Assembly: GCA_002724635.1 (NCBI GenBank)
Contig: PBPM01000108.1
Span: forward strand, 1 to 64,000
Origin: Rhodospirillaceae bacterium
GTDB taxonomy: Bacteria; Pseudomonadota; Alphaproteobacteria; UBA6615
Direction: 5' to 3'
DNA length: 64,000 nt
A program made the translations under genes and the position numbers. The notes beneath the pieces are model-generated. The model was given only the letters and a program-made list of their open reading frames with translations, was not told the origin of the DNA and made no database searches. Shown here piece by piece: positions 37,765 to 37,836 of the stretch. Each line of letters opens with the position of its first letter. The stretch's first letter is position 1.

Positions 37765-37836
37765 ATGGCCTTTCCGCCGCAATTTCTCGAAGAGTTGCGC
37801 GCGCGGCTTCCGGTGTAGGAAGTCGTTGGGAAAAAG
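37765..37836 (+). other. 5' part of dnaG interrupted by an in-frame TAG
   Basis: An ATG at 37765, with GGAAATGAAG upstream, opens the frame that continues into DnaG. It reads [17 protein letters not shown], then TAG at 37816-37818, then EVVGKK into the GTG at 37837. This stretch is a good primase N-terminus, in which residue 18 is usually a small residue such as Ser. A single base change (TCG to TAG) would explain the stop. It may be a real mutation with translation restarting at GTG 37837, or a sequence error. Confidence 0.75.

Follow-up and report, generated by a model that had tools for sequence, protein, structure and literature searches.

An in-frame TAG at codon 18 of the only dnaG gene in a draft alphaproteobacterial assembly: probably a base error or minor variant, possibly a natural amber allele

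What should one make of a stop codon near the beginning of an essential gene that is otherwise intact? The question arises in the window analyzed here, the whole stretch of 64,000 nucleotides, which sits on contig 104 (119 kb) of the draft assembly of an uncultured alphaproteobacterium (2.95 Mb in 137 contigs, with an estimated contamination of 6.15%). The gene is dnaG, which encodes the bacterial DNA primase and occupies positions 37765 to 39591 of the forward strand. As the earlier note had described, and as both sequence and translation confirm, the frame opens at ATG 37765, is interrupted once by TAG at codon 18 (37816-37818, forward strand), and then runs unbroken up to TAA 39589-39591; counted from the ATG, it has 608 codons. 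A start at ATG 37755, in another frame, was considered and discarded, this ATG being absent from the upstream sequences of the relatives.

The identity of the gene is clear: the match to TIGR01391 scores 431.5 bits, above the curated cutoff of 283.6, and the CHC2 zinc ribbon (PF01807), DNAG_N, and Toprim domains are all recognized. The zinc motif (37876-37950, forward strand) comprises C38, H41, C59, and C62 in the numbering of the full-length protein. When the locus is set against bacterial DnaG as it is usually defined (TIGR01391; PF01807, PF08275, Toprim), the family scores, the zinc motif, the Toprim domain, and the rpoD-like gene next to it all agree, whereas the single in-frame TAG does not. 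From inspection by eye, we take the gene on the 5′ side to be GatB/YqeY-like and that on the 3′ side to be rpoD. No second dnaG was found in the assembly. Within dnaG, the segment 38840-38990 of the window is markedly richer in AT, and a signal serving rpoD, the next gene, may lie within it.

The first point to settle is whether the stop is shared by other organisms, and the earlier note had suggested comparing codon 18 with that of the nearest relatives. The comparison gives a simple answer: codon 18 is TCG, serine, in all sequences of the genus, as well as in those close family members that read through the position, while in more distant family members it is mostly serine or a small residue. 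The TAG is thus private to this genome, and a single substitution separates it from the codon of the relatives. Searches over a broader range agree with this: 60/60 genomes searched with a query that began at the GTG discussed below have dnaG, in each case free of stops over the frame that was matched, and a class-wide search with the read-through protein returned matches in 373 of 385 genomes. Among the roughly 150 class matches listed, a stop inside dnaG is found only in the present genome. Nearly all of these listed matches extend to the first residues of the query, and the exceptions that were examined are cut by contig ends.

Has the gene begun to change in response to the stop? Besides the stop itself, codons 1-24 (37765-37836, forward strand) differ from those of 11 close relatives by 2-6 synonymous and 1-3 amino-acid changes. 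Because the changes are mostly synonymous, the segment gives no hint of relaxed selection, and the TAG is either very recent or not real; as judged from these comparisons, the segment before GTG 37837 was normally constrained until very recently, or is so still. The remainder of the gene carries 7 private changes at columns that are invariant in the relatives, and since the relatives' own numbers range from 0 to 20, dnaG is, by this measure, not in decay.

The state of the assembly as a whole also bears on the matter, and a survey for other lesions was made by comparing 758 kb of it with the proteins of relatives, 161 kb of which was covered at an identity of at least 65%. Across these 161 kb, the survey detected no frameshift and no other gene that was intact but for one clean stop. 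Many of the in-frame stops in the first survey were antisense shadow frames, most of which were removed by a best-frame filter; those left over are, in our own reading, antisense frames, ends of open reading frames, over-extended starts, or a decayed duplicate. With no second clean stop in 161 kb of conserved genes, the assembly is not visibly error-rich. This result is less restrictive than it may seem: only 3.3% of substitutions create a stop, so that the clean survey bounds the base error rate at no better than about 6 × 10⁻⁴ per base, and ordinary error rates are still allowed.

Two decayed genes came to light along the way. On the reverse strand of the window, positions 49383-49777 hold a gene remnant with several in-frame stops and a change of frame, i.e., a decayed pseudogene; it is related to an intact protein of 307 amino acids in a same-genus genome (G005) and by eye resembles SMP-30/gluconolactonase. 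Elsewhere in the assembly, at locus L126 (G000:C1), the reverse strand carries at 2360-2701 a degenerate partial copy, haloalkane-dehalogenase-like by eye, with in-frame stops TAA, TAA, and TAG. It adjoins an intact copy at 2727-3611, and the pair represents a tandem duplicate in decay.

Returning to dnaG, the best explanation, to which we assign a probability of roughly 0.6, is that the TAG is a base error or a minor-strain base that entered the assembled consensus. Under this explanation the wrong or minority base would come from a read or consensus error, or would belong to a strain that is minor or dying out, and the population would make an ordinary, full-length DnaG of 608 residues from ATG 37765. 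We infer that the true majority base is a different one: with a stop in its single dnaG, an essential gene, the organism would have to depend on restart or suppression, and the segment that the stop would silence still looks fully constrained. The other observations point the same way: TCG stands at codon 18 in the same-genus genomes and the close family members that read through it, no other dnaG listed from the 385-genome class sample contains a stop, codons 1-24 and the rest of the gene are free of relaxation and decay, a real stop would remove a class-conserved structural element, and nothing at the locus shows adjustment to the TAG. The assembly, moreover, is fragmented and mixed. In being a single private base in a gene that is otherwise clean, within a fragmented and mixed assembly, the case resembles base errors and minor-strain bases of metagenome assemblies in general; it differs in being a probable, not a proven, instance of them. 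The clean survey speaks against this explanation, and so does the position of the stop, considered below. As for the type of change, C-to-A is described as a known oxidative artefact in libraries (PMC12390751), but it is equally a natural mutation. If the TAG is an error, its lesson is only one of caution in reading lesions of essential genes from draft metagenome assemblies. The observation of the TAG itself stands, and no new mechanism is needed to account for it.

A possible alternative, to which we give clearly less weight, is that the TAG is real and recent, and that a DnaG of 584 residues is produced from GTG 37837, either by ribosomes that terminate after 17 codons and then reinitiate or by independent starts. 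Both weights are matters of judgement and not of computation. The GTG (37837-37839, forward strand) is codon 25 of the gene, a valine, and lies in frame 18 nt past the TAG, six codons on. The sequence AGGAAG (37817-37822, forward strand), a weak Shine-Dalgarno-like element 14 nt before the GTG, gives a best duplex of -4.3 kcal/mol, as compared with -3.3 kcal/mol at ATG 37765. The product would lack 24 residues, as the earlier note had correctly counted, and all four zinc ligands (C38, H41, C59, and C62) lie downstream of the GTG and would be retained. With its zinc ligands and catalytic parts kept, the shortened enzyme would probably suffice, at some loss of stability or activity. The classical case of translational restart downstream of an early nonsense codon is that of the early amber mutations of E. 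coli lacI. The present gene resembles that case in its early stop followed by a nearby in-frame GTG; it differs in that dnaG is essential and that the lost part lies within a folded domain. In bacteria, termination-reinitiation at starts close to a stop is established (PMC6728339). The literature found on restart in essential genes, as on base errors in metagenome assemblies, was scant.

Is there any indication that GTG 37837 has been shaped for such a role? All 11 close relatives also have GTG at this internal valine, which means that it is inherited and not an adaptation. In six relatives that lack the stop, the same codon is preceded by Shine-Dalgarno-like contexts of -3.6 to -10.2 kcal/mol, two of them at -10.2; most of the six have a stronger start signal here than the one at GTG 37837. 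With both the codon and its context present in stop-free relatives, nothing here is adapted for restart, and codons 1-24, as noted, do not drift. One might ask, instead, whether the whole genus uses an internal start at this position. Codon 25 is GTG in 12/12 close sequences, the sole such column among 19 all-valine columns, but two others have GTG in 11/12 and in a wider sample GTG is found at codon 25 in 18/38; given GTG at other valine columns and its variability in the wider sample, the idea was not convincing and was dropped.

The structural cost of restart was examined with models. The N-terminal helices that precede the zinc ribbon are encoded on either side of the TAG and would be missing from a product that starts at GTG 37837, which, matched to PF01807 and TIGR01391, would be short of their first 23-24 positions. 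In the structure model these helices span residues 5-14 and 17-21 and are predicted confidently (pLDDT 85-93 for the block), and the modelled zinc-binding domain superimposes on the solved structure 1D0Q with an rmsd of 1.1. According to the model, the two helices are part of the zinc-binding domain, and they are conserved across the class. Modelled in its shortened form, the domain keeps its strands and later helices with a mean pLDDT of 85.7, versus 87.0 for the full form; the pTM drops from 0.75 to 0.62, although the two chains also differ in length. For the DnaG of B. subtilis, integrity of the zinc-binding domain has been reported as needed for template binding, which is no longer stable once the domain is lost (PMC5429622), and we found no report in the literature on the effect of losing helices 5-14 and 17-21 alone. 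A truncated but working primase, one of the options offered by the earlier note, thus has its start codon and its zinc ligands in place and pays for them with two class-conserved helices: it is possible, not established.

A further point for restart is where the stop falls. Of 178 single changes that would create a stop in dnaG, 8 (4.5%) lie within the first 24 codons, before the GTG, i.e., where rescue is possible. A random error would land there by chance, whereas a tolerated mutation must do so, and the resulting factor of about 20 favors the latter. Set against this are the loss of the two helices, the reach of nearly all listed class matches to the N-terminal end of the query, the GTG shared with stop-free relatives, and the absence of drift. 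It seems to us doubtful that the sole primase gene of a free-living bacterium is a natural amber allele, from which DnaG, devoid of the N-terminal helices, is made by restart at the GTG of codon 25. If it is, nature can dispense with 24 N-terminal residues of DnaG that the class conserves, and the organism offers a simple test of what the N-terminal helices do.

Could the TAG be real and simply be read? The earlier note listed read-through beside truncation and base error with no ranking; the most economical of the three is a base error or a minor variant, and read-through is supported by nothing but the open frame downstream. Here a suppressor tRNA or a near-cognate tRNA would decode the TAG and give some full-length DnaG, an improbable state of affairs. 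Before the TAG and after it, the frame is indeed open and conserved, and a low level of read-through might suffice, for primase is required in few copies only. Neither sign of amber suppression or reassignment was seen, RF1 being intact and TAG not avoided as a stop: it terminates 16/37 long genes of the window, a frequency that would make strong suppression costly. No CUA anticodon is present among 43 tRNA matches in the assembly, a list from which several expected tRNAs (e.g., Ser-GCT, Ile, Ala-TGC) are missing, so that a suppressor could sit in unassembled DNA; the Ser(CGA) tRNA is present with a normal anticodon. From these data, both reassignment and ordinary suppression are unlikely. Still less credible is a dead dnaG with another primase in charge, given the lack of a second dnaG in the assembly and of decay in the remaining 590 codons. 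As for a recoded TAG, pyrrolysine-like or in a different code, the open frame alone would suggest it, and the earlier note had rightly set it aside from the use of TAG as a normal stop; the intact RF1, the search for a CUA tRNA, which found none, and the survey, in which no other conserved gene is intact apart from an in-frame TAG, leave it next to no credit.

The tRNA search yielded two further observations. At locus L144 (G000:C19), positions 7580-7654 were considered as a suppressor and rejected: the match is poor, it is the one tRNA match that ARAGORN does not recognize, and the anticodon position reads CAU. In this match (29.2 bits) the 3′ half is good and ends in CCA, whereas the 5′ half is broken; an integrated element may have used it as its attachment site. 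In the window, a tRNA-Met at 41784-41860 overlaps the listed start of a same-strand open reading frame of 276 amino acids (41828-42658), the true start of which is probably further in.
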